51,952 bases of DNA. Source: a bacterium. GTDB lineage: Bacteria > Armatimonadota > Chthonomonadetes > Chthonomonadales > JAMCWF01. Positions 3,680 to 45,054 of the stretch are shown here, piece by piece. Below the pieces are notes generated by a model. It was not told where the DNA came from. It ran no database searches and saw only the letters and a list, made by a program, of their open reading frames with translations. Positions within the stretch are counted from its first letter, which is position 1; each line of letters begins with the position of its first letter. The position numbers were made by a program, and so were the translations under genes. Location of the stretch: positions 1 to 51,952 of the forward strand of contig JAKBZR010000012.1 in NCBI GenBank assembly GCA_021842405.1, written 5' to 3'.

Positions 3680-3689
3680 TAGTGCCGTT

Positions 3690-3841
3690 ACAAAAGAAAG
3701 AGTTCAGGTTTGCGGGAATGATTTTCGTTCGACCCCCATCCTGAGTCTGGGAGAAGAAGGGAGGTATTGGGAGCGCGTTAGGCCGACCCCCATCCCGCCC
3801 TCTAACACCCGCCTAAATTACCCAGAGAACTGAACTGTTAC
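3690..3841 (-). mobile_element. MITE-like element, family 1, copy A
   Basis: The right end reads, on the minus strand, GTAACAGTTCAGTTCTCTGG followed by GTAATTTAGG; the left end is AAAGAGTTCAGGTTTGCGGG followed by AATGATTTTCGTTCGACCCC. Both ends match copies B and C, in reverse orientation. The interior is non-coding and C-rich. It lies between rpmH and the presenilin-like gene and directly abuts a second, solo left end at 3842-3886. Confidence 0.7.
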
Positions 3842-3886
3842 TTACAAGAGAAAGAGTTCCGTCCTACAGGAATAATTTTCGTCCGC
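3842..3886 (-). repeat. Solo end of a family 1 MITE, forming the 3' end of a gene
   Basis: GAAAGAGTTCCGTCC, then AGGAATAATTTTCGTCCG, repeats the left end of copy A (GAAAGAGTTCAGGTT, GGGAATGATTTTCGTTCG) in the same orientation, with several differences. It encodes the last ~14 residues and the stop codon of the membrane protein gene at 3842-4849. Confidence 0.6.
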
Positions 3887-4849
3887 CGACTTGATAACAG
3901 ACCGATCCAAAAAGGCCCCCATTTTCACTGTTCCTGCGCTCTCTGATTGCGGGCTTCGATTACGGTGGAAGCTGGACTGCCGATGCTGAAGGTACCATAT
4001 TCCGGTAGCGACCGCGATTACGATCAGCCCGGCATACAGGATCGCCAGCAGTTCAGATCGCTGATAGTGAAAGTGACGCCAGTTCGCAACCAGCAAAACG
4101 ATCGCTACCGGCACCAGGGCGGGTAAGGCTTGCGCCCAACTCCCCAAGCGGTCCGCTTGGCTCACTACCAGCATATAGACAATGAGGGTGATGCACAAGC
4201 CGATGAACGTCTTCTTTTCATTCATCGAGAAACGGTAAACGCAGGCATAGAAAAAGGCGATGAACATAAAGTCGGCGAATCCGATGAAGAGCGCCGGCGC
4301 AGCTCCATGGCTGCCATGTGCGATAGGAGGCAGTTTAATCAAGAATGGCTTTGCGAGGTTCGGCGCTTTGGTCATGATTTGGTGAACTGGCCCCCCGCCC
4401 ATCACGGTGTACCAGTCCACCAACGCGGCCACTAAGCTGACCGGTGGAATTAAGTTTTTCTCGCGAATGATTCCCGATAGCAGCACGCCGATCGAGCTGG
4501 CGAAACACATAATGATGAGCGAGCTTAAACCGGGGATCATCATCAGCTCGATCAGCGGTACGATCGGCGGGTGGAGATGAGTTGAAATGTATCCAATTAA
4601 AAAGATAACGACGGAAGCACCAGCGAGAAGGATCGCTGAACGGGTTTGTGAGATATGTTTTGCCAGTTTAGTAATGAACAACAACTGAAAAAACATCGCA
4701 ATGATAGTGGAAAGTACGAAGATGAAAAGGCTGTCGTAAGGAGTCCGCAGGGCGATTTGCCAGTAAATCAGGTAGATGATACCGATTAATAGTGGCCCCT
4801 TTGGTCCGAAAGTGAGATCCCGGAGTCGGGTGGAGTATTCTTTTCGCAT
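3842..4849 (-). CDS. Presenilin/SPP-like polytopic membrane protein (putative GxGD aspartyl protease)
   Basis: A 335-residue protein with about 9-10 hydrophobic segments. Three short motifs occur in the order and spacing of presenilins and signal peptide peptidases (family A22): an Asp in a hydrophobic segment (D145 in ALVDWYTV), GFADFMF with D193 in the next one (canonical GxGD; Ala replaces the second Gly), and ALPALVP (PAL, 243-245) two segments later. FIGLCITLIVYML before PAL also resembles the presenilin segment there. The D193-PAL distance of 50 residues is close to that in presenilin-1. These enzymes cut membrane proteins within the bilayer; activity here is inferred. The C-terminal 14 residues come from a MITE end. 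The ATG at 4849 has a weak ribosome binding site. A transporter of unknown type is the alternative. Confidence 0.55.
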   Translation of the reverse strand: MRKEYSTRLRDLTFGPKGPLLIGIIYLIYWQIALRTPYDSLFIFVLSTIIAMFFQLLFITKLAKHISQTRSAILLAGASVVIFLIGYISTHLHPPIVPLIELMMIPGLSSLIIMCFASSIGVLLSGIIREKNLIPPVSLVAALVDWYTVMGGGPVHQIMTKAPNLAKPFLIKLPPIAHGSHGAAPALFIGFADFMFIAFFYACVYRFSMNEKKTFIGLCITLIVYMLVVSQADRLGSWAQALPALVPVAIVLLVANWRHFHYQRSELLAILYAGLIVIAVATGIWYLQHRQSSFHRNRSPQSESAGTVKMGAFLDRSVIKSADENYSCRTELFLL

Positions 4850-5026
4850 GTCTTTAAGAATTGCCGCGTGCCTTCTCCATCGAGGAGCGATCGAGCAATC
4901 CTCTCCTTATCTTATTGCCCATTCAGCGGGCATAACCGTAATACGGGCAGATGATCCCGATGATTACCGCTCCCAGCCTGTTGATCCCGAATTTTAGCGA
5001 AGAACTCAATTTTACACTTATTCTTT
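4850..5026. other. Intergenic stretch, no feature seen
   Basis: The presenilin-like gene starts leftwards at 4849, and no protein, RNA or clear promoter could be supported here before MITE copy B begins. Confidence 0.5.
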
Positions 5027-5159
5027 GTAAGAGTTCAGTTCTCTGGGCAATTTGGGCAGCAGGCTTTACCCCTATAGCAATAATCAACACCCTCCCCGCT
5101 TGCGGGGAGGGCTGGGGTGGGGTCGAACGAAAATCATTCCCACAAAACTGAACTCTTAC
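5027..5159 (+). mobile_element. MITE-like element, family 1, copy B
   Basis: At 133 bp this is the shortest and cleanest copy. It starts GTAAGAGTTCAGTTCTCTGG and ends AAAACTGAACTCTTAC, an inverted repeat. Near the right end a hairpin CCTCCCCGCTTGCGGGGAGG is followed by GCTGGGGTGGGG, then CGAACGAAAATCATTCCC. No protein is encoded. The terminal TA on both sides could be a TA target duplication, as in IS630/Tc1-type elements; that is inference. Confidence 0.75.
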
Positions 5160-5164
5160 TAATC

Positions 5165-5194
5165 TTTACAAAACAGGCGCTTGTATTATATAAT
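5165..5194 (+). promoter_or_regulatory. Sigma-70 promoter of the ANTAR regulator operon
   Basis: TTTACA (5165-5170) and a perfect TATAAT (5189-5194) are 18 bp apart in an AT-rich stretch directly after MITE copy B. The predicted transcript starts near 5201 and has a leader of about 230 nt before the regulator gene. Confidence 0.7.
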
Positions 5195-5200
5195 GTTAAT

Positions 5201-5429
5201 AATTAGAGTGTCAATTCAGCGCCCGGCTGAAGCAGACCAGCATAGGTCCGCAATGGAGCGGCCCTTATGATTTTACACCCACTTCCTTCCCTTCTCGCTC
5301 TTTTCAATGCTCCAACGAGGCGCTGGACCGCTGCTTCCTCTTGGCGAGGACGCATAAGCTACCGATTTCAACGACGGCGGGAGGCGGTTGATACGTGGTA
5401 CGGCCGGGCTGCTGGCAGGAGGTTATTCA
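5201..5429 (+). promoter_or_regulatory. Long 5' leader of the ANTAR regulator gene
   Basis: About 230 nt lie between the predicted start of transcription and the ATG at 5430. No good reading frame is present (a short ATG frame at 5267 lacks a ribosome binding site). The second half is G+C-rich and looks able to fold (GCGCTGGACCGCTGCTTCC, GGCGGGAGGCGG, GTACGGCCGGGC). It ends in AGGAGG before the start. I do not recognise a known riboswitch. ANTAR proteins act on leader RNA hairpins, so self-regulation here is possible but unproven. Confidence 0.35.
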
Positions 5430-6011
5430 ATGACATCGAATCCACTTCGAATACTTATCGGAGATGATGATCCGATCATCCGAATGGATTTAAAGCAGAT
5501 GCTGAATGAAGCGAGCTATGATGTGGTCGCCGAGGCGGAAGACGGCAGCCAGGCGGTGGAACTGGCGCGCCAGTTAAAACCGGACGTTCTCATTCTCGAT
5601 ATTAAAATGCCTGAGATGGATGGAATCGACGCGGCTAAAATCATCTCCGAAGAAAAAATCGCACCGGTGATCCTGCTTACCGCCTACAGCCAGGTGGATT
5701 TAATAAATCGGGCTAAGGAATCGGGCGTCTTTTACTACCTGCTCAAGCCGTTCATTCAAGCCGATCTGGTGCCGGCCATCGAGATCACCATGTCGCGCTG
5801 GGAGCAGTTCATCGCGCTGGAAAATCAGGCACTGAGCCTGGAGGATAAGCTGGAGACCCGAAAGGCGGTAGACCGGGCAAAAGGGATTTTGATGGACCAG
5901 CATGGGCTGAAGGAACAGGAGGCTTTCCGACGGATTCAGGTTCAGAGCATGAACACGCGCAAATCGATGCGGGAAATTGCGGAGGCGATCATTATCGCGA
6001 ACAACGTGTGA
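5430..6011 (+). CDS. ANTAR-domain response regulator (transcription antiterminator)
   Basis: A 193-residue two-domain protein. The receiver domain (about 5-120) has the acidic pocket GDDD (11-14), the phosphorylated Asp57 in LILDIKMPEMDG, Thr84 and Lys106 in LLKPF. The ANTAR domain (about 132-190) carries AVDRAKGILMDQHGLKEQEA, the signature of AmiR/NasR and EutV proteins, which bind paired hairpins in nascent mRNA and prevent termination. The start is at ATG 5430 because AGGAGG lies seven bases upstream; a further-upstream start at 5388 has none. The kinase at 6058 is the likely partner, as in EutV-EutW. Its RNA targets cannot be read from this window. Confidence 0.92.
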   Translation: MTSNPLRILIGDDDPIIRMDLKQMLNEASYDVVAEAEDGSQAVELARQLKPDVLILDIKMPEMDGIDAAKIISEEKIAPVILLTAYSQVDLINRAKESGVFYYLLKPFIQADLVPAIEITMSRWEQFIALENQALSLEDKLETRKAVDRAKGILMDQHGLKEQEAFRRIQVQSMNTRKSMREIAEAIIIANNV

Positions 6012-6057: not shown

Positions 6058-7827
6058 ATGCGTTCATTACTGTTTAAGCGACGATTACGCGCCCTTCAAC
6101 AGCGCAGCGATGACCCAGATATTCAAATTCTACAGGCTGAGTTGGATAGCCGGGAACGGCAGCTTCACGAATCGCATCTACTGATTGACCAGCTTCGAGC
6201 TGAACTGGAGGAAAAGGGCGGCGAAGCGGAGGCTCTCCGCCGTATTGGAGAGGCGACCGGCTCCGCCATTGACCTCGAGGAGATGCTCAAGGTTATAGCG
6301 GATGTGGCGGTTCAGGTTACCGGTACCGATTCTTGCCAGGTCTACATCTATGACAGCACCCATGATGAGCTGGTATTGAGGGCGGCCGACCCAACCGCTC
6401 AAAACATGGTGGGCAAAATCAGGCTCAAACTGGGCGAAGGAATTACCGGCTGGGTCGCCCGCGAGCGAAAACATGTGGCGGTCATCCGTAAAGCTTACGC
6501 CGACCACCGCTTTAAATATTTCTCAGAAATCCACGAAGATGAGTATGAAAGTATCCTGTCGGTGCCGCTGGTGATGAAGCAGCAAATTTTAGGCGTCATC
6601 AACGTCCGCACCCGCCAACCGCGAGAGTATACCAAACATCAGGTCCGCCTCCTCTCCGGGATCGCCAGCCAGGTCGCCGGTGCTATTCAACAGTCGGAAC
6701 GGCGTAAACAGCTCGAAACGACCGCCGTCCAGTTGCGAACTCTCTCCGCCGTCAGCGAAGCGATCACCTCCAACTTGTACCTCGAAGAGCTGCTGCAACT
6801 TTTCGTGGCGGTTATCGCCCAGACCTTGGGATACAAAATATGTACCGTGATGCTGGTGAATGAGGAGAATCAGGAGCTGATCATTAAGGCTACACAGAGC
6901 GAAAGCAGCGATTACCGTAAAAAACCCAATCCCAAAATTGGAGAGAGCATCGCCGGGCGCGCGGTGGCGGAAGGTAAGGTGATCACCGTTCTGGATGTGA
7001 AGAATGAGCGCGATTACGGCTTTCCTGACGTCGCCCAGAAGGCCGGTCTCTGCTCTATGGCCAGCGTGCCGTTGATGGTGCATAATCGGGTTATCGGCGT
7101 ATTGAACTGCTACACCGATAAACCGCATATCTTCAGCAAAGAAGAAATTGCGATTCTCCGTGCGATGGGTACCCAGGCCGCTTTAGCCATCGAACACGCT
7201 AAGTTAATGGTTCGCGCGGCGGTAATTCAGGAAATGCACCATCGGGTTAAAAATAACCTTCAACAGATCGCCAGCTTGGTCCGCCTCCAATCACACTACA
7301 GTCAATACAAAACGGTGGAGGAAGCGCTGAACGATACCTTGAAGCGGATCCTTGCCATCGCGGCGGTTCACGAGCTTCTTTCCCGCGATGATCTGGATGC
7401 CGTGAGCGTGCGAAAGCTGGCCGAACAGATCCTCACCGCCACCAAGCAAAGCGTGGTTCACCCTGGCAAAACGGTCCACAGCAAGGTGGAGGGAAACGAC
7501 CTGATGTTGCCGCTCGCCCAGGCCACCCGGGTGGCATTGGTTTTAAATGAGCTGATCCAAAACGCGATCGAGCATGGATTTCGCTCATTGGATGAAGGGA
7601 GAATACACGTTCACATCATCGAGGATGAAAAAGAGGTCCGCCTGGTGGTGATTAATGACGGCGAGCCGCTGCCCGATCATTTCGACCTGGCAAAAACGAA
7701 CACGCTGGGGCTGAGGATTGTCCAGGACCTGGTGTGTGGAGGGCTCAAGGGCCAATTCTCGCTGGTGAACGATAATGGTATCGTGGCTACGGTCGTCTTT
7801 CCTCGTGACACCAACACCACCGACTGA
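6058..7827 (+). CDS. Soluble sensor histidine kinase (two GAF domains, HisKA_2, HATPase)
   Basis: A 589-residue protein without membrane segments. A coiled coil (about 20-65) leads into two GAF sensory domains (about 75-215 and 230-380). A HisKA_2 domain follows, with IQEMHHRVKNNLQQIASL (His394/His395, one of them the phosphoacceptor). The HATPase has an N box (ALVLNELIQNAIEHGF) and a G box (NTLGLRIVQDLV). It presumably senses a cytoplasmic small molecule or redox state and phosphorylates the ANTAR regulator 46 bp upstream. HisKA_2 kinases paired with ANTAR regulators are known from eut control. The ligand is unknown. The ATG at 6058 has only a weak ribosome binding site. Confidence 0.92.
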   Translation: MRSLLFKRRLRALQQRSDDPDIQILQAELDSRERQLHESHLLIDQLRAELEEKGGEAEALRRIGEATGSAIDLEEMLKVIADVAVQVTGTDSCQVYIYDSTHDELVLRAADPTAQNMVGKIRLKLGEGITGWVARERKHVAVIRKAYADHRFKYFSEIHEDEYESILSVPLVMKQQILGVINVRTRQPREYTKHQVRLLSGIASQVAGAIQQSERRKQLETTAVQLRTLSAVSEAITSNLYLEELLQLFVAVIAQTLGYKICTVMLVNEENQELIIKATQSESSDYRKKPNPKIGESIAGRAVAEGKVITVLDVKNERDYGFPDVAQKAGLCSMASVPLMVHNRVIGVLNCYTDKPHIFSKEEIAILRAMGTQAALAIEHAKLMVRAAVIQEMHHRVKNNLQQIASLVRLQSHYSQYKTVEEALNDTLKRILAIAAVHELLSRDDLDAVSVRKLAEQILTATKQSVVHPGKTVHSKVEGNDLMLPLAQATRVALVLNELIQNAIEHGFRSLDEGRIHVHIIEDEKEVRLVVINDGEPLPDHFDLAKTNTLGLRIVQDLVCGGLKGQFSLVNDNGIVATVVFPRDTNTTD

Positions 7828-18442: not shown

Positions 18443-19228
18443 ATGCGAGCACTTTACATAGCCGCCACCGGAATGAGCGCGCAGCAGTTTAATTTGGATG
18501 TTATCGCCAATAACCTGGCAAACGTCAATACGGCCGGATTTAAGCAATCCCGCGCCGAGTTCCAAGACCTGCTCTACCAGACGATCCATGCGCCCGGTGT
18601 TCAGATGGGACAAAACGCTCAGCTTCCGGTGGGTTCTCAGATCGGCCTTGGTGTAACGTCCGGCGCGACCGCCATTCAATTTACTCAAGGGGCGCTGCGC
18701 ACCACCGGCGGCAACTACGACATCGCTATAAACGGCGACGGCTTCTTTCAAATTCTAATGCCGGATGGTACCCTCGCTTACACCCGTGACGGCGAGTTCA
18801 GCGTTGACAGCACCGGTAAGCTGGTGACCAGTCAGGGCTATGCCTTGCAGCCTGAGATTGTAATTCCGCAGGATATGCAGACGGTCACCATCAGTCCCGA
18901 CGGCATCGTTTCGGTCACTCGCGCCGGTCAGACTAATCCGGATCAGATCGGCCAGATTCAGCTCACACGCTTCATTAATCCACAGGGCTTGATGAGTCTG
19001 GGCAGCAATCTCTATGCTCCCACACAAGCATCCGGCACCCCGATTACCGATGTGCCCTCTCAAAGCGGCTTGGGCACCCTGATTCAAGGCTCCATCGAGG
19101 GCAGCAATGTCAACATCGTGAATGAGATGATTGATCTGATAATGGCTCAACGCGCCTATGAAAGCAACAGCAAAGCTATCCAGACGGCCGACCAGATGTT
19201 GACTACCGCCAACCAGATCAAGCAGTAG
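18443..19228 (+). CDS. flgG: Flagellar distal rod protein FlgG
   Basis: The 261 residues start MRALYIAATGMSAQQFNLDV with NNLANVNTAGFKQSRAEFQD. The FlgG-like centre is DIAINGDGFFQI and the end is EGSNVNIVNEMIDLIMAQRAYESNSKAIQT. FlgG makes the distal rod that passes through the P and L rings. AAGGAGG precedes the ATG at 18443. flgA follows 13 bp later. Confidence 0.95.
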   Translation: MRALYIAATGMSAQQFNLDVIANNLANVNTAGFKQSRAEFQDLLYQTIHAPGVQMGQNAQLPVGSQIGLGVTSGATAIQFTQGALRTTGGNYDIAINGDGFFQILMPDGTLAYTRDGEFSVDSTGKLVTSQGYALQPEIVIPQDMQTVTISPDGIVSVTRAGQTNPDQIGQIQLTRFINPQGLMSLGSNLYAPTQASGTPITDVPSQSGLGTLIQGSIEGSNVNIVNEMIDLIMAQRAYESNSKAIQTADQMLTTANQIKQ

Positions 19229-19241
19229 GGGGTGGAAAACG

Positions 19242-20240
19242 ATGCGATTACTTCCAGCAACCCTTATCTTAATGATCTTCACTTTACGGCCTGCCGACGC
19301 ATCGGCGGTTCAAAAGTCAACCGGCAGCCGCTCACAGCATAAAGTGTTGATCATCGTCCAACCCAATTCAACGATCAGCACGGGGCATATCACGCTCGGC
19401 GAGATCGCCGATATCGCCGGCTCCGATTCCCACCTCATCACCGAGTTGAAAACACTGGATGTCGGGGTATCGCCGCTGGCCGGACTTTACCGCATTTTAT
19501 TGCCCAGCGACATTATGGTGCGCCTGCGTTTCAACCATATAGATCTGAAGCGCATCGCCATTACGATTCCCAAACAGGTTCGCGTCTCGCGATCGGCAAC
19601 CAACGTAACCGGCGAGCAGATGCTGCAAGCGGCAATCACGGCGGTGAAATCGGCCATGAAGGACACCAACGGCGTCAACATTAAACCGGTTCAGATTCCG
19701 CAAGACACCAGTGTGCCGCAAGGTGTTGTGGCGGTGACAGCCGGAACGCCGGAAGGCCAATTGAACAGCGGCATCGTGACGGTACCGGTGACGATCTCGG
19801 TCAACAATCGTCCCAACGCCACGATAGATGTGCCCTTGCGAATACAGAAAACGGCGCTGGTGGTGGTCGCAGCGCATCCCTTGGGGGCACAAACGATTAT
19901 CGGTCCGAACGATGTCACTCTGACGCCGGTGGTGCTGCAGGATGGCGCGCCCGACGCGATCTACCGGCTTTCAGACGCAATCGGAAAAAAAACGACTCGG
20001 CGTATTTTGGAAGGCTCGCCCATCCCGGCCAACGCGGTACAAGCACCACCCATTATCGCTTCCGGCGATCGAATCATCGTGGAGATCACCGTCGGCGGTG
20101 TCACCGTTCAAGCCCCAGCGATCGCGCGGGACGCCGGTGCATTGGGAGATCACATCCGGGTCTATTGCACCGAGACTCACAAAAACCTGATTGGGAAGGT
20201 CATTAATTCACAAACCGTTCTTGCATCGGAGGCTTACTGA
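19242..20240 (+). CDS. flgA: Flagellar P-ring chaperone FlgA
   Basis: The 332 residues begin with a signal peptide (about 1-22). The C-terminal SAF-type region has VVVAAHPLGAQTIIGPNDVT, YRLSDAIGKKTTRRILEGSP and VEITVGGVTVQAPAIARDAG, typical of FlgA. FlgA is a periplasmic chaperone needed for P-ring assembly by FlgI. It is longer than the E. coli protein (219), with an extra N-terminal region. flgH starts 2 bp after the stop. Confidence 0.9.
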   Translation: MRLLPATLILMIFTLRPADASAVQKSTGSRSQHKVLIIVQPNSTISTGHITLGEIADIAGSDSHLITELKTLDVGVSPLAGLYRILLPSDIMVRLRFNHIDLKRIAITIPKQVRVSRSATNVTGEQMLQAAITAVKSAMKDTNGVNIKPVQIPQDTSVPQGVVAVTAGTPEGQLNSGIVTVPVTISVNNRPNATIDVPLRIQKTALVVVAAHPLGAQTIIGPNDVTLTPVVLQDGAPDAIYRLSDAIGKKTTRRILEGSPIPANAVQAPPIIASGDRIIVEITVGGVTVQAPAIARDAGALGDHIRVYCTETHKNLIGKVINSQTVLASEAY

Positions 20241-20241
20241 A

Positions 20242-20844
20242 ATGCGATCAATACGAACCAGTCTTTTCATCTCATTGTTTATAGCCGGCATATCGCTTGG
20301 CTACGGGGCGTCGGCGCGCGCTGATTCGCTCTTCCCGGTGAAAGGGAGCCGTTACATCTCGTTTTTCAGCGACAACCGGGCTCACCATGTCGGCGATGTG
20401 CTGACGGTGCTCATCTCCGAGAACACGACCGCCACTTCGAGCGCCGCCACTCAAACCACTAAAAGCGAGGCGGCCAATTTCGGCGGAGGCGTTGGTTTCC
20501 TGGGCAAGCTGTTTTCACCGTTTGGAGCGTCCAGCAGCGGATCCCTGAACGCCAGCGGTCAAACCACCCGATCCGGTTCATTGACCACCGAAATGGCGGT
20601 CCGCATCAAGAAGATATTGCCGAACGGCGATTACCAAATCGAGGGCTCGCGTTCGCTGAAGATCAATAAGGAGACCCAGAGGGTGAAGCTGACCGGCATC
20701 GTTCGGCCGGAGGACATTAGTCCGCAGGATACGGTCTCCTCACCGCAGGTGGCGGATGCCCATATTGAATATCTTGGCAAAGGGATTATCGCTCGCCAGC
20801 AACATCGCGGCCTCATATCCACCATCTTTGGCTGGCTGTTCTAG
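20242..20844 (+). CDS. flgH: Flagellar L-ring protein FlgH
   Basis: The 200 residues have a signal peptide (LFISLFIAGISLGYGASARA) without an obvious lipobox Cys. The FlgH core follows: VGDVLTVLISENTTATSSAA, MAVRIKKILPNGDYQIEGS, IVRPEDISPQDTVSSPQVAD and HIEYLGKG. It forms the outer-membrane ring of the flagellum, direct evidence for an outer membrane. The ATG at 20242 is chosen because GGAGG lies upstream and flgA ends at 20240. Confidence 0.94.
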   Translation: MRSIRTSLFISLFIAGISLGYGASARADSLFPVKGSRYISFFSDNRAHHVGDVLTVLISENTTATSSAATQTTKSEAANFGGGVGFLGKLFSPFGASSSGSLNASGQTTRSGSLTTEMAVRIKKILPNGDYQIEGSRSLKINKETQRVKLTGIVRPEDISPQDTVSSPQVADAHIEYLGKGIIARQQHRGLISTIFGWLF

Positions 20845-20907
20845 GAATTGATGAAAACGATGGTGAGGATAGATTTAAGCAATCAACTGAAAAGGGGTCA
20901 CTGAGAG

Positions 20908-22002
20908 ATGCTCAAGCGATTGGCTTTCATTTCAATATTGGCGTTGATCTCGACTGCAGCGCTCGCGCAGGTCCGATTGAAGGATATCGCGACCATCGAA
21001 GGAGCCCGCGGCAACCAACTGATCGGCTATGGGATTGTGGCAGGGTTGGACGGGACCGGTGACAGTCAGAGCGCGCTGTTTACCGTTCAATCCATTGCGG
21101 ATGCGCTGCAAAAATTCGGCGTGAACGTTCCCGCCCAATCCATCCGGATGAAAAACGTGGCGGCTGTCATGGTGACGGCAAACCTGCCCCCATTTGCCCG
21201 TCCCGGCAGCGAGATTGATGTGACGGTCTCCTCGATCGGCGATGCGAAATCGCTTCAAGGCGGCACCCTGCTTCAAACGCCTCTTTTGGCAGCCAACGGT
21301 CAGGTTTATGCCGCCGCACAGGGACCTATCTCGATTGGAGGCTTCAACGTTTCAGCCGGCGGCTCATCGGTTCAAAAAAACCAGACCAATGTAGGATTAA
21401 TTCCAAACGGCGCCTATGTTGAGCAGTCGGTGCCCACCACAATCACTAAGGGGCAATCCATTCACATTCTGCTGAATAGCCCTGATTTCACAACCGCCAG
21501 CCGAGTGGTGTCCGCTATTAAATCCGCTTACCCCACTGTGACGGCAGTGGCTGTGGATCCGGGCACGGTTAGAGTGGACATTCCACCAAATGATCATCGT
21601 GACCTGGTCGAGTTCGTCTCCCAGTTGGAGCTGTTGCGTGTGGTACCCGATACCATCGCGCGGATCGTGGTCAATGAGCGCACCGGCACCGTCGTTATCG
21701 GCGGCAATGTAACCATCTCGCCGTGCGCCGTCGCCCATGGCAACCTCCACATTCAGGTGCAGAATAATCCAATCGTCGCGGTGCCGCCGCCTTTTAGTTC
21801 CGGCAAGCCGATAGTGGTGCCCAATAAATCCGTTCAGGTGCAAGAGACAAAGAGCGGCTTGGCCGCTATGCCGGCAACCACCACCGTCTATCAACTGGTG
21901 CGTGCGCTGAATGCGCTGGGCGTTACACCGCGGGATCTAATTGCGATCTTACAAACGATGCAGGCTTCCGGCGATATTGCGGCTACCATCGAGGTGCAGT
22001 AA
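20908..22002 (+). CDS. flgI: Flagellar P-ring protein FlgI
   Basis: The 364 residues have a signal peptide (1-20, ending AALAQ). Hallmarks are VRLKDIATIEGARGNQLIGY, GLVAGLDGTGD-like GIVAGLDGTGDSQ, KNVAAVMVTANLPPFARPGS, and VRALNALGVTPRDLIAILQ at the end. It polymerises into the periplasmic ring in the peptidoglycan layer. The stop shares one base with the flgJ start. Confidence 0.95.
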   Translation: MLKRLAFISILALISTAALAQVRLKDIATIEGARGNQLIGYGIVAGLDGTGDSQSALFTVQSIADALQKFGVNVPAQSIRMKNVAAVMVTANLPPFARPGSEIDVTVSSIGDAKSLQGGTLLQTPLLAANGQVYAAAQGPISIGGFNVSAGGSSVQKNQTNVGLIPNGAYVEQSVPTTITKGQSIHILLNSPDFTTASRVVSAIKSAYPTVTAVAVDPGTVRVDIPPNDHRDLVEFVSQLELLRVVPDTIARIVVNERTGTVVIGGNVTISPCAVAHGNLHIQVQNNPIVAVPPPFSSGKPIVVPNKSVQVQETKSGLAAMPATTTVYQLVRALNALGVTPRDLIAILQTMQASGDIAATIEVQ

Positions 22003-22331
22003 TGAACGGTGTGAGCAATCCAGGATCAACTTCGGTGCTGCCGCTCATCAGCTCGGCCGGCAAAGCTCAAATGAATCGAGAAGATCAGTCGTTGGCGAAG
22101 CTGAAACAGGCGACCACCGATTTTGAGGCGATCTTTATCGGCGAGATCCTCAAGGAGATGCACTCCGATGCCAGTAAGGGAGGGCTGTTCGGAAATTCAT
22201 TTGAGATGGGCACCTACCGGGAAATGTACGATGAAGCGATCGCTCAACAACTGGCTAAATCCGGAATTCTTGGAATCGGAAAGATGCTCTATCAAGAGCT
22301 GGCGCCCGCGGTCAAGGAGGAGACTCGTTGA
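22002..22331 (+). CDS. flgJ: Flagellar rod-binding protein, FlgJ N-terminal type
   Basis: The 109 residues have the rod-binding domain motif TTDFEAIFIGEILKEMHSD, then GGLFGNSFEMGTYREMYDEA and QLAKSGILGIGKMLY. The peptidoglycan-hydrolase domain of E. coli FlgJ (313 residues) is absent, as in many non-enterobacterial species, so a separate lytic enzyme would be required. It overlaps flgI by 1 bp and the next gene by 4 bp. Confidence 0.88.
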   Translation: MNGVSNPGSTSVLPLISSAGKAQMNREDQSLAKLKQATTDFEAIFIGEILKEMHSDASKGGLFGNSFEMGTYREMYDEAIAQQLAKSGILGIGKMLYQELAPAVKEETR

Positions 22332-22876
22332 AACGCAATTTAAGTAACCTTTCTCTAAAAGCAGGGCAGTTACGATTGGCGGAATGGTCGGATCGGTTGG
22401 CCTCCACTCTGCAAAACGAGCTTTTTGCCATCCGCCATCTGGCCAATCTATCCAGCCAGCAAACGGCTGCCATCGTTCAAAACGATCTACCCAAAGTGAA
22501 CCGGATCGTTGAGCAACAGGCCGATTCGAATCAGCGGTTGGCAAGCCTCGAAGCGGAGAGGGCAAAAATGACCGTTCAGATGGCGGCATATCTGGGTGTT
22601 CAACCTGAAAACGCACCGTTAATACGATTGCGGGAGATCGAGGAGATGCTGCCGGAACCGAATCGGAGACGCCTTTCATCCATTCGGAAGGAGTTGGCGC
22701 GCTTGATGGACCGAATCCAGCACACGAATGACCTTAACTCCATTTTAATCGGCAATATGCTGGAGATGATTAATCAAACGGTGCAAGAGATTGTCCGCCT
22801 AGCCACCAGTCCGCCCGGATACGGCGGCCGATCTTATGCTCAGGGCGCCACTCTGTACCTGGATACCAAAGCCTAG
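22328..22876 (+). CDS. flgN: FlgN-family flagellar chaperone
   Basis: A 182-residue, mainly helical protein with the pattern LQNELFAIRHLANLSSQQT and LASLEAERAKMTVQMAAYLG. FlgN binds the hook-filament junction proteins FlgK and FlgL before export, and flgK and flgL follow directly. The start is a TTG at 22328 overlapping the flgJ stop, with AAGGAGG upstream. The assignment rests on helical pattern and context more than on strict motifs. Confidence 0.8.
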   Translation: MKRNLSNLSLKAGQLRLAEWSDRLASTLQNELFAIRHLANLSSQQTAAIVQNDLPKVNRIVEQQADSNQRLASLEAERAKMTVQMAAYLGVQPENAPLIRLREIEEMLPEPNRRRLSSIRKELARLMDRIQHTNDLNSILIGNMLEMINQTVQEIVRLATSPPGYGGRSYAQGATLYLDTKA

Positions 22877-22905
22877 TATGGCTTGATGAAGAAACGAGAA
22901 AGACA

Positions 22906-24324
22906 ATGCCTTCGACCTTTTTTGGTATAGAAACCGCACTCAGAGCGCTTGGCACCAGCCAAACCGCTCTGGACGTGATCAGCAACAATATTGCGAATGT
23001 AAACACTCCCGGCTATTCCCGCCAGACGGTAAACATCTCGGAGACCGATCCCTGGCCGACTCCGGATGCCTTCTCAGGTGGATTGTCAGGTCAACTGGGC
23101 AGCGGGGTCACCGTCACCTCCATTCAACGGGTGCACAATCAATACCTCGACACTCAGTATATGAACGCCAATTCGCAGCAAAGTTATTTCACTGCAATGC
23201 AAAATACCTTGAATCCGGTGCAATCCGCCTTCAATGAGCCGAGCGATAACGGTCTGAACTCGATGATATCCAGCTTCTTCAACGATTTTCAGCAGCTCTC
23301 ACTGGATCCGCAAAGCCAATCGGCCCGCGAAGTGATTCGTAATCAAGGGGCTGCACTCGCCTCGCAATTTAATTCGCTGGCCCAATCTTTATCGTCGGTT
23401 AGCCCGCAGGTGGATCAGCAGATAACCGCTGATGTAAAACAGGTCAACCAGATTACCTCTCAAATCGCGGTACTAAACAAACAAATCAGGCAAGTGATCG
23501 CTTCCGGCCAGCAGCCCAATGACTTGAAGGATCAGAGGAATCAGCTACTAAATCAACTTTCCGGGTTGGTAAACGTTCAGGTCGTGCCGGATACGAACGG
23601 CGCCGGCCAGCAAACCGGCGCCCTCAACGTGTTCGTCAGCGGATATGCCGTCGTGCAGGGCAGCTCATCCTATAATCTGCCGACCGCCAACTCGATGGCG
23701 AATGGACAGAGCGTGCTAAGCGACGGCATCAACAGCATACCGGTAACCGGAGGCCAGATAGGCGGCTTGATGCAGGCCAAGCAGCTTTCACAGACCTATT
23801 TAACCAACCTAAATTCACTGGCGTCATCTTTAATCCAGTCAGTGAACGCACAGCACCGCACGGGCTACGGATTGGATGGCATCAATAATCGCAACTTCTT
23901 CGCCGGCGCCGATGCCGCTTCCATCTCGCTGGACAGCTCCATTACGGCGAGCGTGGACGCGATTGCAGCCGCCGCAGCGCCGGCCAACGGCTCCCAACCG
24001 GTTTTAGGAAACGGCGAAAATGCCCTTGCGATTGCCGATTTAGCCCAGACCACACAATCTTCGCTTTCTAATCAAACTTTCAGTGGCTACTACAGCGGCT
24101 TGGTCGGTCAGGTCGGTGCCGACATCCAAAACGCATCCACCAGCGCAACCAACCAACAGCAGGTTATACAGCAAATTACCAATTTACAACAATCCACTTC
24201 GGGCGTAAATCTGGATGAAGAGTTGACCAATATGCTCTCCTTCGAGCGGTCTTATCAAGCGGCCGCAAAGGTGATGACCACGATGGATTCAATGTTAAAT
24301 ACGCTCATTAACCAAATGAGTTGA
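22906..24324 (+). CDS. flgK: Flagellar hook-associated protein 1 FlgK
   Basis: The 472 residues start with FGIETALRALGTSQTALDVI and NNIANVNTPGYSRQTV. The C-terminus has GVNLDEELTNMLSFERSYQA and AKVMTTMDSMLNTLINQM. FlgK joins the hook to the filament. The middle is Gln/Asn/Ser-rich and somewhat shorter than in E. coli (547). flgL follows 35 bp later. Confidence 0.95.
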   Translation: MPSTFFGIETALRALGTSQTALDVISNNIANVNTPGYSRQTVNISETDPWPTPDAFSGGLSGQLGSGVTVTSIQRVHNQYLDTQYMNANSQQSYFTAMQNTLNPVQSAFNEPSDNGLNSMISSFFNDFQQLSLDPQSQSAREVIRNQGAALASQFNSLAQSLSSVSPQVDQQITADVKQVNQITSQIAVLNKQIRQVIASGQQPNDLKDQRNQLLNQLSGLVNVQVVPDTNGAGQQTGALNVFVSGYAVVQGSSSYNLPTANSMANGQSVLSDGINSIPVTGGQIGGLMQAKQLSQTYLTNLNSLASSLIQSVNAQHRTGYGLDGINNRNFFAGADAASISLDSSITASVDAIAAAAAPANGSQPVLGNGENALAIADLAQTTQSSLSNQTFSGYYSGLVGQVGADIQNASTSATNQQQVIQQITNLQQSTSGVNLDEELTNMLSFERSYQAAAKVMTTMDSMLNTLINQMS

Positions 24325-24359
24325 TGGACGAAATCTTGTTTAACGCTTGAGGATCGAAA

Positions 24360-25256
24360 ATGATAAGAGTAAGCACCGAACAGACAACGCTGGACGCCTT
24401 GGCCGGCATCAATACCGCCTATAATCAGGTCACCACTTCACAGCAGCAACTGGAGACCGGCTATCGGATCAATCAACCGTCGGATGATCCAGCCGGAACC
24501 ACGCAGGCGTTACAAATAAAAACGTCGCTGTTGCAATTGGGGCAGTTTCAAAAAAACATCAACAGTGCGCAAAGCTTCATGAATACCAGCGATACGGCGC
24601 TAGGCCAAATCAATACCTTGCTGGATCAGGCAAAATCCATCGCGGTGCAGGGTGGCAGCAATACCCTCTCGTCCGATCAAAGCGCCGCGCTGGCTGCCCA
24701 GATACAGGGCATTATGGACCAGGTTGCTGAATTGGGAAATACAATGAATGGAACTCAATACGTTTTCGGTGGGCAAATGACCAATCAGCCTCCTTTTGTC
24801 TCAAATAACGGGAGCTACACCTATAATGGCGGCACCTCGGCAAACAACAGCGACCAAATCAACGTTGACTTTGCGCCCGGCCAGACCATGCAGATCAACG
24901 TGAGCGGCGAATCGGCGATCCAGCCCATCTTTGGTGTGCTTTCTCAACTGAAGTCGGACCTTCAATTCGGCAATGCGTCCGCGATCTCAAACAACGATAT
25001 TTCAGCGATAGACAGCCAACTCAGCCAGGTAGAGTCGGCGCAGGCCGATGTGGGCGCCAAACTCCAGACCCTAAGCAGCACCTCCCAGTACTCGCAACTG
25101 GAGCAGACAAATTACCAAAATTACCTGAGCCAGATCATGGATACCAATATGGCGCAGGCGGTTGTCACGCTGCAATCGGCGCAAACCGCCTATCAAGCGG
25201 CGCTGGCTGCCGCTTCGAATACCTTCCAGCAAAGCCTGCTCAACTATATAAAATAA
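24360..25256 (+). CDS. flgL: Flagellar hook-associated protein 3 FlgL
   Basis: The 298 residues have the flagellin-like N-terminus (TTLDALAGINTAYNQVTTSQ, LETGYRINQPSDDPAGTTQA) and the C-terminal DTNMAQAVVTLQSAQTAYQA and SNTFQQSLLNYI. It is the second junction protein and the start point for filament growth. Its sequence resembles flagellin, but the position after flgK and the length fit FlgL. Confidence 0.92.
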   Translation: MIRVSTEQTTLDALAGINTAYNQVTTSQQQLETGYRINQPSDDPAGTTQALQIKTSLLQLGQFQKNINSAQSFMNTSDTALGQINTLLDQAKSIAVQGGSNTLSSDQSAALAAQIQGIMDQVAELGNTMNGTQYVFGGQMTNQPPFVSNNGSYTYNGGTSANNSDQINVDFAPGQTMQINVSGESAIQPIFGVLSQLKSDLQFGNASAISNNDISAIDSQLSQVESAQADVGAKLQTLSSTSQYSQLEQTNYQNYLSQIMDTNMAQAVVTLQSAQTAYQAALAAASNTFQQSLLNYIK

Positions 25257-36746: not shown

Positions 36747-37700
36747 TCAACCTTCCTCCGCGGATAGCTGATAGGCGATCCCAGGTGAAGATTTCCAACG
36801 ATTGTGCAGCCAAAGCCATTGGGTTGGATATTGCCGTATCACCCATTCTAACCGGGAATTGATGAATTCCATGATCCGTTTCACATCGGCATCCGTATCT
36901 CCGGAAGGCTCAAACCAGACCGGACTCTCGTGTACAATCCGAAATCGCCCGTTGGGCATCCGCACGCACCAAACAATTACGATCGGCGCCCCGGTTTTCA
37001 AGCAGATGCGCGCCGGTCCGGAGACGGTTCCGGTAGAGCGGCCAAAAAACGGCACGAATACGTCGGAAGCATTTTGGTCGGGCAGCATGGCAACGTACTC
37101 ATTTCTTTTCAATGCCTGTAAGATCGGCCTGATCGTTTCCCCAACGTGAAGCACCGAGTATCCGGCCGATTCCCGCACTTTGGTCATCAAATGGGTCGTT
37201 CTCGGATCTCGAGTGCGCCGAGCTACCACGTGCAATTTACGACCGCAGAGTACCTGCCATCTCGCCAGCAGCTCCCAGTTACCGATATGGCCGGTGATAA
37301 ATATCACACCTCGGCCCATCTTCTCGCACTCTTGAAGCCCCTCCTCACCCGAGGCATCCACCAGCTCCCGAATCTGTTGCTTGGATAGGTCGGGTACGGT
37401 TAAAAACTCAAATACGGTCGCGCCGAAGTTGCGAAAGACCGATCGCGTTATTTTTCTGCATTCGCGCTCGGCCATCTGATCACCGTAGGCCAGCGCCAAA
37501 TTTCGCATCGCCATGTTCCGATAACGGCGGGATAAGAAATAACAGAGGTCTCCTAGCACAAAGCCGATCTTTTGCGCGCGAAGGGTTCCCAGCGGCCCGA
37601 TCAATCGCTTCGATGCCAGTAAAAATTGAGAGCCTATCCATCGAACGGCGCGACGTTCCGGCCTGTAAATCATAAAATTCTCAGATGTTATATTGCTCAT
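36747..37700 (-). CDS. lpxL: Lipid A biosynthesis acyltransferase (LpxL/HtrB type)
   Basis: The 317 residues contain the HX4E catalytic motif (H138 and E143 in FITGHIGNWELLARW), PDQNASDVFVPFFGRSTGT for substrate contact, and a C-terminal YPTQWLWLHNRWK. The enzyme adds a secondary acyl chain to Kdo2-lipid A at the inner membrane. Whether it is the first (LpxL) or second (LpxM) acyltransferase cannot be told; it is the only one in the window. It starts 13 bp after lpxK. Confidence 0.92.
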   Translation of the reverse strand: MSNITSENFMIYRPERRAVRWIGSQFLLASKRLIGPLGTLRAQKIGFVLGDLCYFLSRRYRNMAMRNLALAYGDQMAERECRKITRSVFRNFGATVFEFLTVPDLSKQQIRELVDASGEEGLQECEKMGRGVIFITGHIGNWELLARWQVLCGRKLHVVARRTRDPRTTHLMTKVRESAGYSVLHVGETIRPILQALKRNEYVAMLPDQNASDVFVPFFGRSTGTVSGPARICLKTGAPIVIVWCVRMPNGRFRIVHESPVWFEPSGDTDADVKRIMEFINSRLEWVIRQYPTQWLWLHNRWKSSPGIAYQLSAEEG

Positions 37701-37713
37701 CTAGGCCACTTTG

Positions 37714-38874
37714 TCAACCTATATCTCCAGAAGCAGCGATATTATGGTTTACTTTCATTGATGTGGTAATCATCTCTAAAAGTTCGTCCATCTTTTCAAC
37801 AATCAGCCGCGTGCTCAGCGCCACAATTGGAATATCCCAATTCTTCAGTGGAAGCGATTGAAGGCGGGCTTGATCTTTCATGGTTGTAACGATCACTTCC
37901 GCGCCAGCGGATTGGGACCGCCGAACGATCTGATGCACCTCCTTGTGACTGTAGGGATGATGATCTGGAAATTGAGTCCAGCCTTCAATAATGGCGCCCA
38001 AATTCTGCAAGGTTTGGTAAAATCGGCTTGGCCGGCCAATCCCGCAAAATGCGCTGATCCGCTTCCCTTTCAGCCACTCCACCGGCCGCTCATCATTTAT
38101 TTTATGCTCTCGACCATGTTCAAGTGCAACCAAGCTTTGCGGCTCAAATCGTGCATAGAAAATTGGAATCGAGTCCGCCACTCTTTCAATCATCTTTTTG
38201 ATCTTTTCCTGGTGGGCCGGCTCTGGTTGCTCCTTTTTTACCATAACGATAGCATCCGCTCGCTTCAGGTGGCTGGGCGGCTCTCGCAGCAAACCGGCCG
38301 GCAGCATCCACCCATTTTCGAAAGGCCGCTCCGAATCCAACATAACGATCCGAAAGTCTTGATGAAGCTGCCAAAACTGCATGCCATCGTCGAGAATTAC
38401 TAAATCGGGATGAAAGCGCTCTAAAGCGAGGCAGCCCGTCAGCCGACGATCTTTGCCCACTATGACCGGTGTGTCTTTTAGCGATCGTGCGATCTCTTGC
38501 GCCTCATCCCCCGATTCGGCGGCAGAGAGCACGATGCGCTCTCCATCGCTGACGACCCCGCCGCTTTTCTCGAGGCTACCACCGTATCCCCGCATCAGAA
38601 CTGCAATGGAAAATCCAATTTTCATTAACGATTCGCTGAGCGCGATCGTGAATGGCGTCTTGCCGGTACCGCCGCTCGATAAATTCCCGACGCAGATGAC
38701 CGGGCACTTGATCCGACACTGCTTTCGTATGCCCCACCGGTACGGAGCCAGATAGATTTCTAAACCAGCACGATGAATAGCTGCCAGTGGCACCAACAGC
38801 GCCCGGATCGCCACCGCCGTAACGTCTTGCCGCTCACCCGAGATGGTGGCCTTCAGCCCATCGTACCCGCTCAT
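37714..38874 (-). CDS. lpxK: Tetraacyldisaccharide 4'-kinase
   Basis: It phosphorylates the 4' position of the lipid A precursor. The 386 residues have a membrane-associated N-terminus, the Walker A-like VGNLSSGGTGKTPFTIAL, LMRGYGGSLEKSGG, the catalytic LVILDDGMQFWQLHQDFRIV and FCGIGRPSRFYQTL. The start overlaps the waaA stop (ATGA), showing coupled translation. At 386 it is longer than the E. coli enzyme (328), mostly at both ends. Confidence 0.94.
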   Translation of the reverse strand: MSGYDGLKATISGERQDVTAVAIRALLVPLAAIHRAGLEIYLAPYRWGIRKQCRIKCPVICVGNLSSGGTGKTPFTIALSESLMKIGFSIAVLMRGYGGSLEKSGGVVSDGERIVLSAAESGDEAQEIARSLKDTPVIVGKDRRLTGCLALERFHPDLVILDDGMQFWQLHQDFRIVMLDSERPFENGWMLPAGLLREPPSHLKRADAIVMVKKEQPEPAHQEKIKKMIERVADSIPIFYARFEPQSLVALEHGREHKINDERPVEWLKGKRISAFCGIGRPSRFYQTLQNLGAIIEGWTQFPDHHPYSHKEVHQIVRRSQSAGAEVIVTTMKDQARLQSLPLKNWDIPIVALSTRLIVEKMDELLEMITTSMKVNHNIAASGDIG

Positions 38875-40199
38875 TTTGCCTTTATCAACGAAACGATCGA
38901 ATCGGCGTAACGGCCGGCTGCCCCTCTATTTTCTTCAATCAACTGGACTGCCCGGTGCTCAATGTCCCGCCGCCGCGCTTCATCCTGCAAAATCGCCAGA
39001 ACATCATCAGCCAACCGCTCTGAAGTGGTTTGAAATGCCACCGCCGCTTCAATCGCAAGCGAGGCGATTTCCCGGTTTTCACCCATATACGGCCCAAAAA
39101 ATACCGGCTTCCCATGGGCCATCGGCTGCAGGATATTCTGGCCTCCACCTGGTGCAATCAGGCTATTGCCAATGATTGCAACATCTCCAACTGCATAGAT
39201 ATCCGCAAGCTCGCCGTATGTGTCCAATATCACTTGCCGCGTTTCAATTCTTCCCTCGCTGCGTCTCCCCGGTTGAAAACCAGCGTCTAGAAAAAGCTGT
39301 TTCAGCTCTTCAGCCCGCTCAACATGCCTTGGTGCCCAAATGATGCAACAATCGGGAGCTGTACTCAGTAATTTCTGATAGGCTTCCATGATGAGCTTTT
39401 CCTCTTCCAAAGTGCGAGTGCTGCCCACCACCAAAGTCCAACCTCTACCCGGTAAACCCAGATCAGATCGTAAACGCTCCACCTCATCGGTTGAAAGCCT
39501 TCTCACCGGCTGGTCAAACTTTGAATTTCCCAATACGCTGATCCGCTCCGGTAACGCACCCATCGAGATAAATCGCTCCCGATCCCCCTCCGTTTGTACC
39601 AATAAGAGGTCGAACTGCTTCAGCGTCCAACTAAAGAGCCACTTCCAGCGCATATACCGTTTGAAGCTTTTTTCAGAAACGCGGCCATTGGTCAATATAA
39701 CGGCGACCCCGTACCTTTGGGAAAGGTGGACGAGATTAGGCCAAAGCTCGGTTTCCATCACAACCAGCGCGGCCGGTTTCACTCTGTGTAAGGCGTTCTT
39801 AATTGCCGGCACGTAGTCCACCGGAAATGCGATGGAGTGATCGAGCAACTCACCCTGGCACTTTCGCACCATCTCAATGCCCCCCGCGGTTAAGGAGCTC
39901 ATCACGATGCTCGCATCCGGCAATCTCTCTCTCAGCTCCTTTAGAATTGGTCGAGCCGCCGCCACCTCACCAACCGAAACGGCATGCACCCATATTCGAA
40001 CGGTGCGATCAACCCTCGGAGGGAGCGCCACCCATCCCAATCGTTCAATCCAATTCGCTCGCTCCTTCCCTTGTGCAAATCTTATAATAAAATAGATAGC
40101 TAGCGCAGGGGCCGAGATTATGAGCAGCAGGTTATAAAGGAGGTAGGGTATGATGGGCGATTTGTCCCCGGCATGGTCACGGTGCCTTTGCCTACTCAA
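38871..40199 (-). CDS. waaA: 3-deoxy-D-manno-octulosonic acid transferase WaaA/KdtA
   Basis: A 442-residue GT30 enzyme. A membrane anchor (about 16-42) is followed by IWVHAVSVGEVAAARPILKE with the catalytic Glu. Also present are VVMETELWPNL, LTNGRVSEKSFKRY, WAPRHVERAEELKQLF and APGGGQNILQPMAHGKPVFF. It adds Kdo to the lipid A precursor. The start is a TTG at 40199 that overlaps the preceding gene by 8 bp; no in-frame ATG is available before the anchor. Confidence 0.94.
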   Translation of the reverse strand: MSRQRHRDHAGDKSPIIPYLLYNLLLIISAPALAIYFIIRFAQGKERANWIERLGWVALPPRVDRTVRIWVHAVSVGEVAAARPILKELRERLPDASIVMSSLTAGGIEMVRKCQGELLDHSIAFPVDYVPAIKNALHRVKPAALVVMETELWPNLVHLSQRYGVAVILTNGRVSEKSFKRYMRWKWLFSWTLKQFDLLLVQTEGDRERFISMGALPERISVLGNSKFDQPVRRLSTDEVERLRSDLGLPGRGWTLVVGSTRTLEEEKLIMEAYQKLLSTAPDCCIIWAPRHVERAEELKQLFLDAGFQPGRRSEGRIETRQVILDTYGELADIYAVGDVAIIGNSLIAPGGGQNILQPMAHGKPVFFGPYMGENREIASLAIEAAVAFQTTSERLADDVLAILQDEARRRDIEHRAVQLIEENRGAAGRYADSIVSLIKAK

Positions 40200-40917
40200 T
40201 CGGCCATTCTTTCGGGTAAGAGTATCCCATCCGGCGCTCCGCTTCTTGCTCGACCCGATTCGTCGCGATCTCCACTCTTCGTGCCTGAGCGTTTTTCACC
40301 TCTTCATCGGATGTCTGTTCCAGCTCGATCGGCTTACCGAGGATCATCACCGCTTTCGAGAAGGGCAGTGGAATCAGATACTGGTCCCAAGATACCGTTA
40401 ACCGTCGCCATTTAGCGCTAGCGCCGATCGGGAATATGGGTGCCTGTGATTTCTGCGCTAGAAAAATAGTACCCCCTTGCACTTTATGCGTTGGACCGCG
40501 GGGACCATCCGGTGTAAATGCGAGCACACCCCCTTCCGATATTTTTTTAGTTAAGGTCAGTGCGGCCCTTATTCCGCCACGACCGGTGGAGCCTCGAATC
40601 GTATGAAATCCAAATCGCTGAAATATCTCATTTTGTATTGAACCATCCCGCGACAGCGAAATCAGCGCCCAGTATCCTCGCTTGTAAAAAACGTTTGCTG
40701 GTATCAATGATCTCCCATGCCACACGACAACGATCCCTCCACGCCCCCCTTTCTTCAGATCGTCAAGTTGGTCCAAGCCCTCATACTCCATTCTGAGCGT
40801 GCAGAATATGCTGCGTGCAACCAGCCAAATCCCAAACCCAAGCCTTCGGGCGCGCCGAGTATCACTGCTTTCGATCGGCGCTTCATTAACTGAGGTGCGG
40901 TTGGCAATTTCGTGCAT
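40192..40917 (-). CDS. DUF374 lysophospholipid acyltransferase-family protein
   Basis: The 241 residues show GGIVVVWHGRSLIPAN (a variant acyltransferase block with His), LISLSRDGSIQNEIFQRFGF, GSTGRGGIRAALTL and FTPDGPRGPTHKVQGGTIFL, the pattern of DUF374 proteins. These sit in LPS clusters next to waaA and resemble lysophospholipid acyltransferases. Whether it acylates lipid A is unknown. The ATG is at 40917. Confidence 0.9.
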   Translation of the reverse strand: MHEIANRTSVNEAPIESSDTRRARRLGFGIWLVARSIFCTLRMEYEGLDQLDDLKKGGRGGIVVVWHGRSLIPANVFYKRGYWALISLSRDGSIQNEIFQRFGFHTIRGSTGRGGIRAALTLTKKISEGGVLAFTPDGPRGPTHKVQGGTIFLAQKSQAPIFPIGASAKWRRLTVSWDQYLIPLPFSKAVMILGKPIELEQTSDEEVKNAQARRVEIATNRVEQEAERRMGYSYPKEWPIE

Positions 40918-41041
40918 TAATCTTTACCCATTACAACTTTTTGAGATTATGGCTTGGCAAGTTTTGACAAAAGCGAGACTTGTTGGAAATCGGCTCTCAC
41001 CCTAATGCTCAACTGGGACATTGTTATTTCACCACCTCAAA

Positions 41042-42802: not shown

Positions 42803-42807
42803 GTTTA

Positions 42808-44172: not shown

Positions 44173-44235
44173 CCTCGCACCTCAACCTTAAGATAATTCA
44201 GATTGTGGTATCCCCACCAACGTCAGGTGGTCCCG

Positions 44236-45054
44236 CTAATGGGGTAGATCGTTTTGACGCCCTCCGTATCCATCTTTTATGCTACGGATAAACGAAATGA
44301 GGTAATCAACCTCTTCGCTCGGCTCCACTTCGTCCTCGATGGTTTCCAAAGCCTGTGAGGTGTTAAGGCCGGAGTGATAAAGAAGCTTGCATGCATGCCG
44401 AAGGCTGGCTCGAATGCCGGCCGGCACACCATGACGCCGTAATCCCACCCGATTCACATCCAGCACCCGGGCCGGTACCCCATCCATAACCATAAACGGC
44501 GGCACGTCCCGATTTATCTTTGAAAAGCCGCCCACCATTGCCAGCTTGCCGATTCGCACGAATTGATGGATTCCGACCATGCCGCCAAAAACCACATTAT
44601 CTTCAATCACCACGTGTCCGCTGAAACCAACGTAGCTGGAAATCATGTTGCCGTCACCAATTATCACATTGTGACCGACATGCGCATAGGCCATCAGCAT
44701 ATTATTGTGCCCGAGACGGGTGACATTGCTCTCTCCGGTAGCACGATGTATCGTAACATACTCCCGGATGATATTGTTGTCTCCGACGACTACCAGGCTA
44801 TGCTCACCTCGAAACTTCACATCTTGGGGTTGGCCTCCAAGGGCTGCTCCGTACCATATTTGGCAATTACGACCAATTCTTGTGTTGCGCTCAATGACAA
44901 CGTGAGCTTTCAGCGATGTCCCGTCACCGATTTGAACATCCTCACCGATCACGCAGTAGGGCCCAATTTCAACCCCGGACCCAAGCTCCGCGGTTGGGTG
45001 TAAAACCGCAGTGGGATGTATCTTCGTCTCACGCTGGTTTTCGGTCATTACCAT
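44236..45054 (-). CDS. lpxA: UDP-N-acetylglucosamine acyltransferase
   Basis: This is the first step of lipid A synthesis. The 272 residues form a left-handed beta helix of hexapeptide repeats (IHPTAVLHPTAELGSGVEIG and onward) with the catalytic His in LMAYAHVGHNVIIGDGNMIS and the acceptor region GMVGIHQFVRIG. A C-terminal helical domain follows (HACKLLYHSGLNTSQALETI). The ATG at 45054 lies just after the fabZ stop, behind AAGGGAA. Confidence 0.95.
   Translation of the reverse strand: MVMTENQRETKIHPTAVLHPTAELGSGVEIGPYCVIGEDVQIGDGTSLKAHVVIERNTRIGRNCQIWYGAALGGQPQDVKFRGEHSLVVVGDNNIIREYVTIHRATGESNVTRLGHNNMLMAYAHVGHNVIIGDGNMISSYVGFSGHVVIEDNVVFGGMVGIHQFVRIGKLAMVGGFSKINRDVPPFMVMDGVPARVLDVNRVGLRRHGVPAGIRASLRHACKLLYHSGLNTSQALETIEDEVEPSEEVDYLISFIRSIKDGYGGRQNDLPH

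Follow-up and report, generated by a model that had tools for sequence, protein, structure and literature searches.

The GxGD proteases of the presenilin, SPP and PSH types have been described, in the literature searched, in eukaryotes and archaea only. Presenilin is the core enzyme of the gamma-secretase of Alzheimer's disease, and in presenilin-1 (PS1), SPP and PSH water is activated by two aspartates, in an active site whose shape depends on the PAL segment. The gene at positions 3842-4849 (minus strand) of the window, i.e. the whole stretch of 51,952 nucleotides that was analyzed, raises the question whether bacteria possess enzymes of the same kind. The open reading frame starts with ATG and encodes a protein of 335 amino acids with nine predicted transmembrane (TM) helices, which yields no notable match in single-sequence searches. 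A preliminary description had proposed that this protein is presenilin/SPP-like, based on Asp145, a GFAD motif ending in Asp193 and a PAL motif at residues 243-245. The open reading frame was confirmed, and the three landmarks, found in the places proposed, lie at the core of what is conserved in a family spread across the phylum. They stay conserved across the aligned members and hence represent the backbone of the family, which most likely constitutes a new variant, found in bacteria, of the GxGD intramembrane proteases.

Distribution and genomic context of the family

Sequence searches across Armatimonadota, the phylum to which all distribution counts refer, identified homologues in 263 of 291 genomes, nearly always in a single copy, with the gene present in 56 of 61 relatives; the family profile added two genomes (G042 and G066) missed by the single-sequence search. 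One named relative comes from an Armatimonadetes MAG. Two neighboring matches within one locus (L114:3899-5734) are possibly tandem copies. Plasmids contained no match, and no relative was found in viral contigs with a haloarchaeal PSH as the query. The family is covered by no Pfam or NCBIfam model and is unnamed in all libraries searched; the literature search retrieved no report of it, and prior notice is possible, for example in Raut et al. 2021, Proteins (cited in PMC9263693). Purifying selection acts on the window gene, as judged by comparison with the copy from the same genus (dN 0.067, dS 0.586, dN/dS 0.11), with 89 of the 130 differences located at third codon positions.

The divergent neighbors of the gene, annotated with Pfam, encode a response regulator with an ANTAR domain (5388-6011, plus strand) and a GAF-GAF-HisKA_2 sensor kinase (6058-7827, plus strand). 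Related kinase and regulator genes adjoin the family gene, mostly in divergent orientation, in 39 loci from many genera. Other groups have a gene resembling leucyl-tRNA synthetase downstream of it (28 loci); neither arrangement points directly to the mechanism. By eye, a rnpA-yidD-yidC-jag-like cluster could be recognized immediately downstream of the window gene and in the same orientation. The possibility that the gene replaces SppA was considered, given that S49 is missing from the window genome, and was rejected, because about half of the phylum carries S49 and no clear pattern emerges.

Several features of the DNA around the gene were observed. Imperfect repeats in inverted orientation flank it on both sides, at 3688-3885 and 5024-5162 (42 nt at 93% and 31 nt at 90% identity), and were not found in the 60 family loci checked, including the locus from the same genus. 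One copy includes the last codons of the open reading frame: the gene end overlaps an imperfect 44-nt repeat copy (3842-3885, minus strand, by repeat comparison), and the final ~13 residues of the protein, which enter this repeat, form a tail without conservation. At 5089-5214, some 340 bases ahead of the gene, there is a perfect sigma-70-like promoter on the minus strand (TTGACA-18-TATAAT), overlapped by a promoter-like site on the plus strand that matches at 11 of 12 positions, and a terminator-like hairpin lies between the sigma-70-like promoter and the start codon. The gene would have a long leader, for which attenuation is conceivable.

Conserved residues, predicted helices and their packing

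Three residues, D145, G190 and D193, are each present in 231 of the 231 aligned members; they are also unvarying in an alignment of 161 members and constitute the only invariant columns of an alignment of 127 members. Family-mean hydropathy predicts nine helices, at approximately residues 19-35, 40-60, 70-90, 105-124, 134-150, 186-205, 214-232, 240-257 and 267-287. The putative first catalytic aspartate, D145 (codon at 4415-4417; this and the following features are on the minus strand), is borne by TM5 (residues 134-150, 4400-4450). The next helix, TM6 (residues 186-205, 4235-4294), bears the Gx[GA]D motif, represented in the window protein by GFAD (residues 190-193, 4271-4282) with D193 as the putative second catalytic aspartate. 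The PAL motif (residues 243-245, 4115-4123) is located at the start of TM8, with one helix separating it from the GxGD helix. The window protein thus displays the succession typical of the GxGD class, namely an invariant Asp in one TM helix, a GxGD-type Asp in the next and PAL at a later helix.

Other highly conserved positions (of 231) are G121 (229), E266 (227), P243 (224), P136 and L245 (217 each), V149 (210) and P174 (207). Among these, P174 belongs to the inter-Asp loop (residues 151-185, 4295-4399), which is predicted to be extracytoplasmic from the charge distribution, and most members have a conserved Pro 28-30 residues past D145. E266 (codon at 4052-4054) is a family-specific, nearly invariant acidic residue past the PAL helix, and precedes an extra helix predicted from hydropathy, TM9 (residues 267-287, 3989-4051), that is absent at this place from A22 proteases. 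An Asp, Gx[GA]D and Px[LMI] co-occur in 220 of the 231 members, the PAL site itself being PAL in 142, PGL in 39 and PLL in 24. The distance from the second Asp to the Pro ranges from 43 to 58 residues in the family, mostly 44-54; it is 50 in the window protein, 48 in PS1 and 56 in PSH, which confirms both values on which the preliminary description had based its comparison with PS1. The motifs are far beyond chance, and the occurrence of a chance motif in a single protein is ruled out by the 231 members. The residue preceding D145 is more variable (V in 79 members, F in 49, I in 35, A in 31 and Y in 8), and the window protein, with Val, lacks the (Y/F)D of GxGD proteases. The FIGLCITLIV segment, which had been likened to the presenilin segment before PAL, shows this resemblance in the window protein only, because positions 215-220 are poorly conserved.

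The replacement of the second Gly of GxGD by Ala, correctly recognized in the preliminary description, extends far beyond the window: position 192 is occupied by Ala in 125 members, the window protein among them, by Gly in the other 106 and by nothing else, with about five A/G changes across the family tree. The Ala of GFAD is an old and common state and no defect. A change of the GxAD type slows presenilin, and in PSH the Gly-to-Ala substitution in the motif of the second Asp slows cleavage and does not abolish it (PMC2947513); because this PSH variant still cleaves, the GxAD motif is compatible with activity.

To the extent that covariation is informative, it is consistent with the packing expected of such an active site. 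Mean-field couplings were computed on 231 sequences (effective number 192); they are noisy and retain phylogenetic signal. Among the top 150 couplings, the most enriched helix pairs are TM7-TM8 (10 versus 1.7 expected), TM5-TM6 (7 versus 1.7), TM5-TM8 (6 versus 1.5) and TM6-TM8 (4 versus 1.8), and one of the strongest couplings, V149-P243, links PAL to the helix of the first Asp. Couplings such as K131-S208, L133-F207 and T148-A192 have position sums (i+j) of 339-340, compared with 338 for D145 and D193, and fit an antiparallel register of TM5 and TM6 that would set the two aspartates beside each other. Because the phylogenetic signal was not removed, this result is suggestive only, and the band score for an antiparallel register did not single out a sum near 339. 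AlphaFold predictions from two sequences, the window protein and its relative from the same genus, had pLDDT values of 42.7 for the full length and 44.4 for TM4-TM9, too low for a fold search.

Profile comparisons and competing interpretations

A relationship to presenilin emerges once the family is represented by a profile. In an hmmsearch against all 177,635 distinct PDB sequences, the best match was the C-terminal fragment of PS1, with E-values of 0.024 for the profile of 50 members and 0.008 for that of 127 members, in a register that places GFAD over GLGD and PAL over PAL; the sole other match of the 127-member profile was an acetylcholine-receptor fragment (E 0.047), on the N-terminal helices. 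When all Pfam-A models were compared with the 127 members, Presenilin had the most matches (7, with E-values up to 1, all below the cut-off). Weak matches of the Presenilin model (PF01080, curated cut-off 34.3 bits) in 151 genomes fell on the gene of this family in 8 of 49 cases, and those of Peptidase_A22B (PF04258) in 4 of 10; these matches are not mutually independent, because the members are related. Neither model exceeded its cut-off in any of the 151 genomes, which is how the profile check proposed in the preliminary description turned out, and the PSH model (PF06550) remained below its cut-off in all 201 genomes tested, with no match recognized on the family gene.

In hhalign comparisons, the family aligned with the PS1 C-terminal fragment at P=0.001, a value that none of 300 hydropathy-preserving shuffles attained, and with PSH at P=0.006, reached by 1 of 300. 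The latter alignment, made with a PSH query identical to PDB 4hyc across all 301 residues, simultaneously superimposes D145 on D162 and D193 on D220, the Asp of the PSH motif GMGD. PSH was represented in these comparisons by a single sequence or by a pair; the pair gave a weaker match (P 0.07-0.14), D145 still aligning with D162, and the Natrinema PSH homologue alone matched over the GxGD helix only (P 0.27). The sequence similarity to A22 proteases is restricted to the motif helices. The profile evidence for common ancestry with presenilin thus appears good, not conclusive. The presenilin/SPP-like character claimed at the outset is upheld, as the PDB and Pfam profile searches converge in the right register, and membership in A22 is not, as no A22 model scores above its cut-off.

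These limits on the similarity count in favor of a convergent origin. The protein could be a diaspartyl protease, or a hydrolase of another kind, that has its two Asp residues in the membrane and a GxGD-like helix without being homologous to presenilin; the similarity is short and below the family cut-offs, the helix numbering differs, and a nearly invariant Glu precedes an additional helix. Convergence has even been suggested for presenilin and SPP themselves (PMC2947513). We nevertheless consider this scenario unlikely, given that three separate motifs agree in order and spacing and that the register emerges unprompted when the profile is aligned with PS1 and PSH.

Still less probable is a multi-spanning membrane protein in which the two Asp residues serve some other purpose, such as proton- or cation-coupled transport or sensing, and the resemblance to presenilin is due to chance. 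Two buried Asp residues are known in transporters too, a conserved pair of kinase and response regulator genes adjoins the gene, and the window member, alone in the family, weakly matches NnrS (PF05940). This match, however, amounts to 21 bits against a cut-off of 28 and, being limited to one member, led us to reject the NnrS identity; no transporter family recurs, the restrictions at G-x-[GA]-D and PAL are those of a protease, and fusions with PDZ domains are found. A significant match to an unrelated transporter, the outcome that the preliminary description had set against its own reading, was therefore not obtained. As for a divergent type IV prepilin peptidase (A24, PF01478), which would share the GxGD motif and the aspartyl mechanism, its probability is close to nil: the Asp residues of A24 enzymes are in soluble regions, several helices apart (PMC2947513), whereas those of the family occupy neighboring hydrophobic helices, 48 residues apart, and are followed by the PAL motif. 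No A24 match appeared in any Pfam scan, and this identity was rejected, the genome carrying a separate, clear A24 prepilin peptidase gene on another contig.

Predicted orientation, domain fusions and relation to known proteases

In our judgment, these proteins are probably intramembrane aspartyl proteases of bacteria that belong to the GxGD (presenilin/SPP) kind and form a family of their own, core to Armatimonadota, with a predicted SPP-like orientation and, presumably, N-in substrates. Across the family, the loops TM2-3, TM4-5, TM6-7 and TM8-9 carry the larger net positive charge, so that, by the positive-inside rule, these loops are predicted to be cytoplasmic and the inter-Asp loop and the C-terminus to be outside. 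The domain fusions agree with the charge distribution in this respect. Six members from the genomes of one family of the phylum, f15 (L240, L242, L243, L244, L245 and L246), end in a PDZ-like domain after the last helix; in the Pfam analysis of L240, L242 and L246, PDZ_2 exceeded the cut-off in L246. The versions from another family, f17 (L055, L056 and L247), are about 1000 amino acids long. They begin like a signal peptide, continue with a CarboxypepD_reg-like domain (Pfam match in L055 and L247) and an extra helix ahead of the presenilin-like domain, and have a large soluble domain past TM9, alpha/beta hydrolase-like by eye. Inspection of the window by eye also revealed flagellar genes at 18443-25256 and the lipid A/LPS and outer-membrane genes kdtA, lpxK, lpxB, lpxA, lpxC, lpxD and bamA at 36747-51727. 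The lpx, bamA and flagellar genes indicate a flagellated cell with two membranes, in which the outside would be the periplasm.

In the mechanism that we propose, D145 in TM5, D193 in TM6 and PAL at the start of TM8 would form an active site within the inner membrane that cuts the transmembrane helix of a substrate. With the inter-Asp loop and the C-terminus facing the periplasm, this site would be oriented as in SPP and not as in presenilin. SPP, with the active site in this orientation, cleaves type II helices, and presenilin has the opposite orientation (PMC7366577); the substrates would therefore probably be N-in (type II) helices, such as leftover signal peptides or periplasmically clipped single-pass proteins. 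Where a C-terminal PDZ domain is present on the predicted periplasmic side, in one family of the phylum, it probably serves to select or gate substrates, in a manner comparable to RseP, and the PDZ forms may choose substrates by their C-termini.

Among known systems, PSH (MCMJR1; PDB 4hyc, PF06550) shares with the family an Asp helix that is directly followed by a GxGD helix, Val at Asp+4 (210 of 231 in the family), Pro at Asp+29, a Pro-x-Leu starting a later helix and the lack of any sign of gamma-secretase-like partners. Unlike PSH, the family scores below the PF06550 cut-off, has four instead of five predicted helices ahead of the first Asp, an extra helix past the PAL helix preceded by the nearly invariant Glu, mostly no Tyr before the Asp, and many members with GxAD. 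Presenilin-1 (A22A, PF01080) is similar in its GxGD-F-x-F helix, the one intervening helix and LPAL, but the active site of the family is predicted in the opposite orientation, its inter-Asp loop is short and without a long insert, and its profile score is below the cut-off. Motifs, spacing and the predicted outside location of the inter-Asp loop are shared with SPP and the SPPLs (A22B, PF04258), whereas the family is bacterial, below the cut-off and predicted to have its N-terminus inside rather than outside, because the number of helices ahead of the Asp differs. With the PDZ-bearing site-2 proteases (RseP, M50), the family would share cleavage within the membrane and, in some of its members, a PDZ domain on the periplasmic side; those enzymes are, however, zinc metalloproteases with unrelated catalytic motifs, and the PDZ of the family is C-terminal. 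The window genome has separate M50 genes.

The A22 layout of nine helices, with Asp residues in TM6 and TM7 and PAL in TM9, differs from that predicted here, in which these elements occupy TM5, TM6 and TM8 and one more helix follows. Because of this different layout, scores below every A22 cut-off and the general lack of the Tyr of YD, we do not place the family in any named A22 family; judged from its sequences, it would work like presenilin and SPP while standing outside these families. As a more detailed picture, which we favor with some reservation, the gene is core to Armatimonadota and represents a bacterial branch of the presenilin superfamily that is ancient and has been inherited vertically, with SPP-like orientation, periplasmic PDZ gating in some lineages and, as the wild type in about half of the members, GxAD, which in presenilin is the G384A disease form.

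If a whole bacterial phylum has a family with this catalytic signature, the GxGD class becomes wider, the question whether presenilin and SPP have a common origin is affected, and simple single-chain enzymes become available for mechanistic work. The natural A/G variation beside the second Asp provides a ready-made test of why the G384A change slows catalysis in presenilin. The C-terminal PDZ domain of some members recalls regulated membrane proteases, and the fusions suggest that regulated intramembrane proteolysis in bacteria may also proceed via an aspartyl protease. With the catalytic signature of presenilin strictly conserved in a protein whose gene occurs in nearly all genomes of this little-studied phylum, bacteria probably have their own branch of presenilin-type membrane-cutting proteases.
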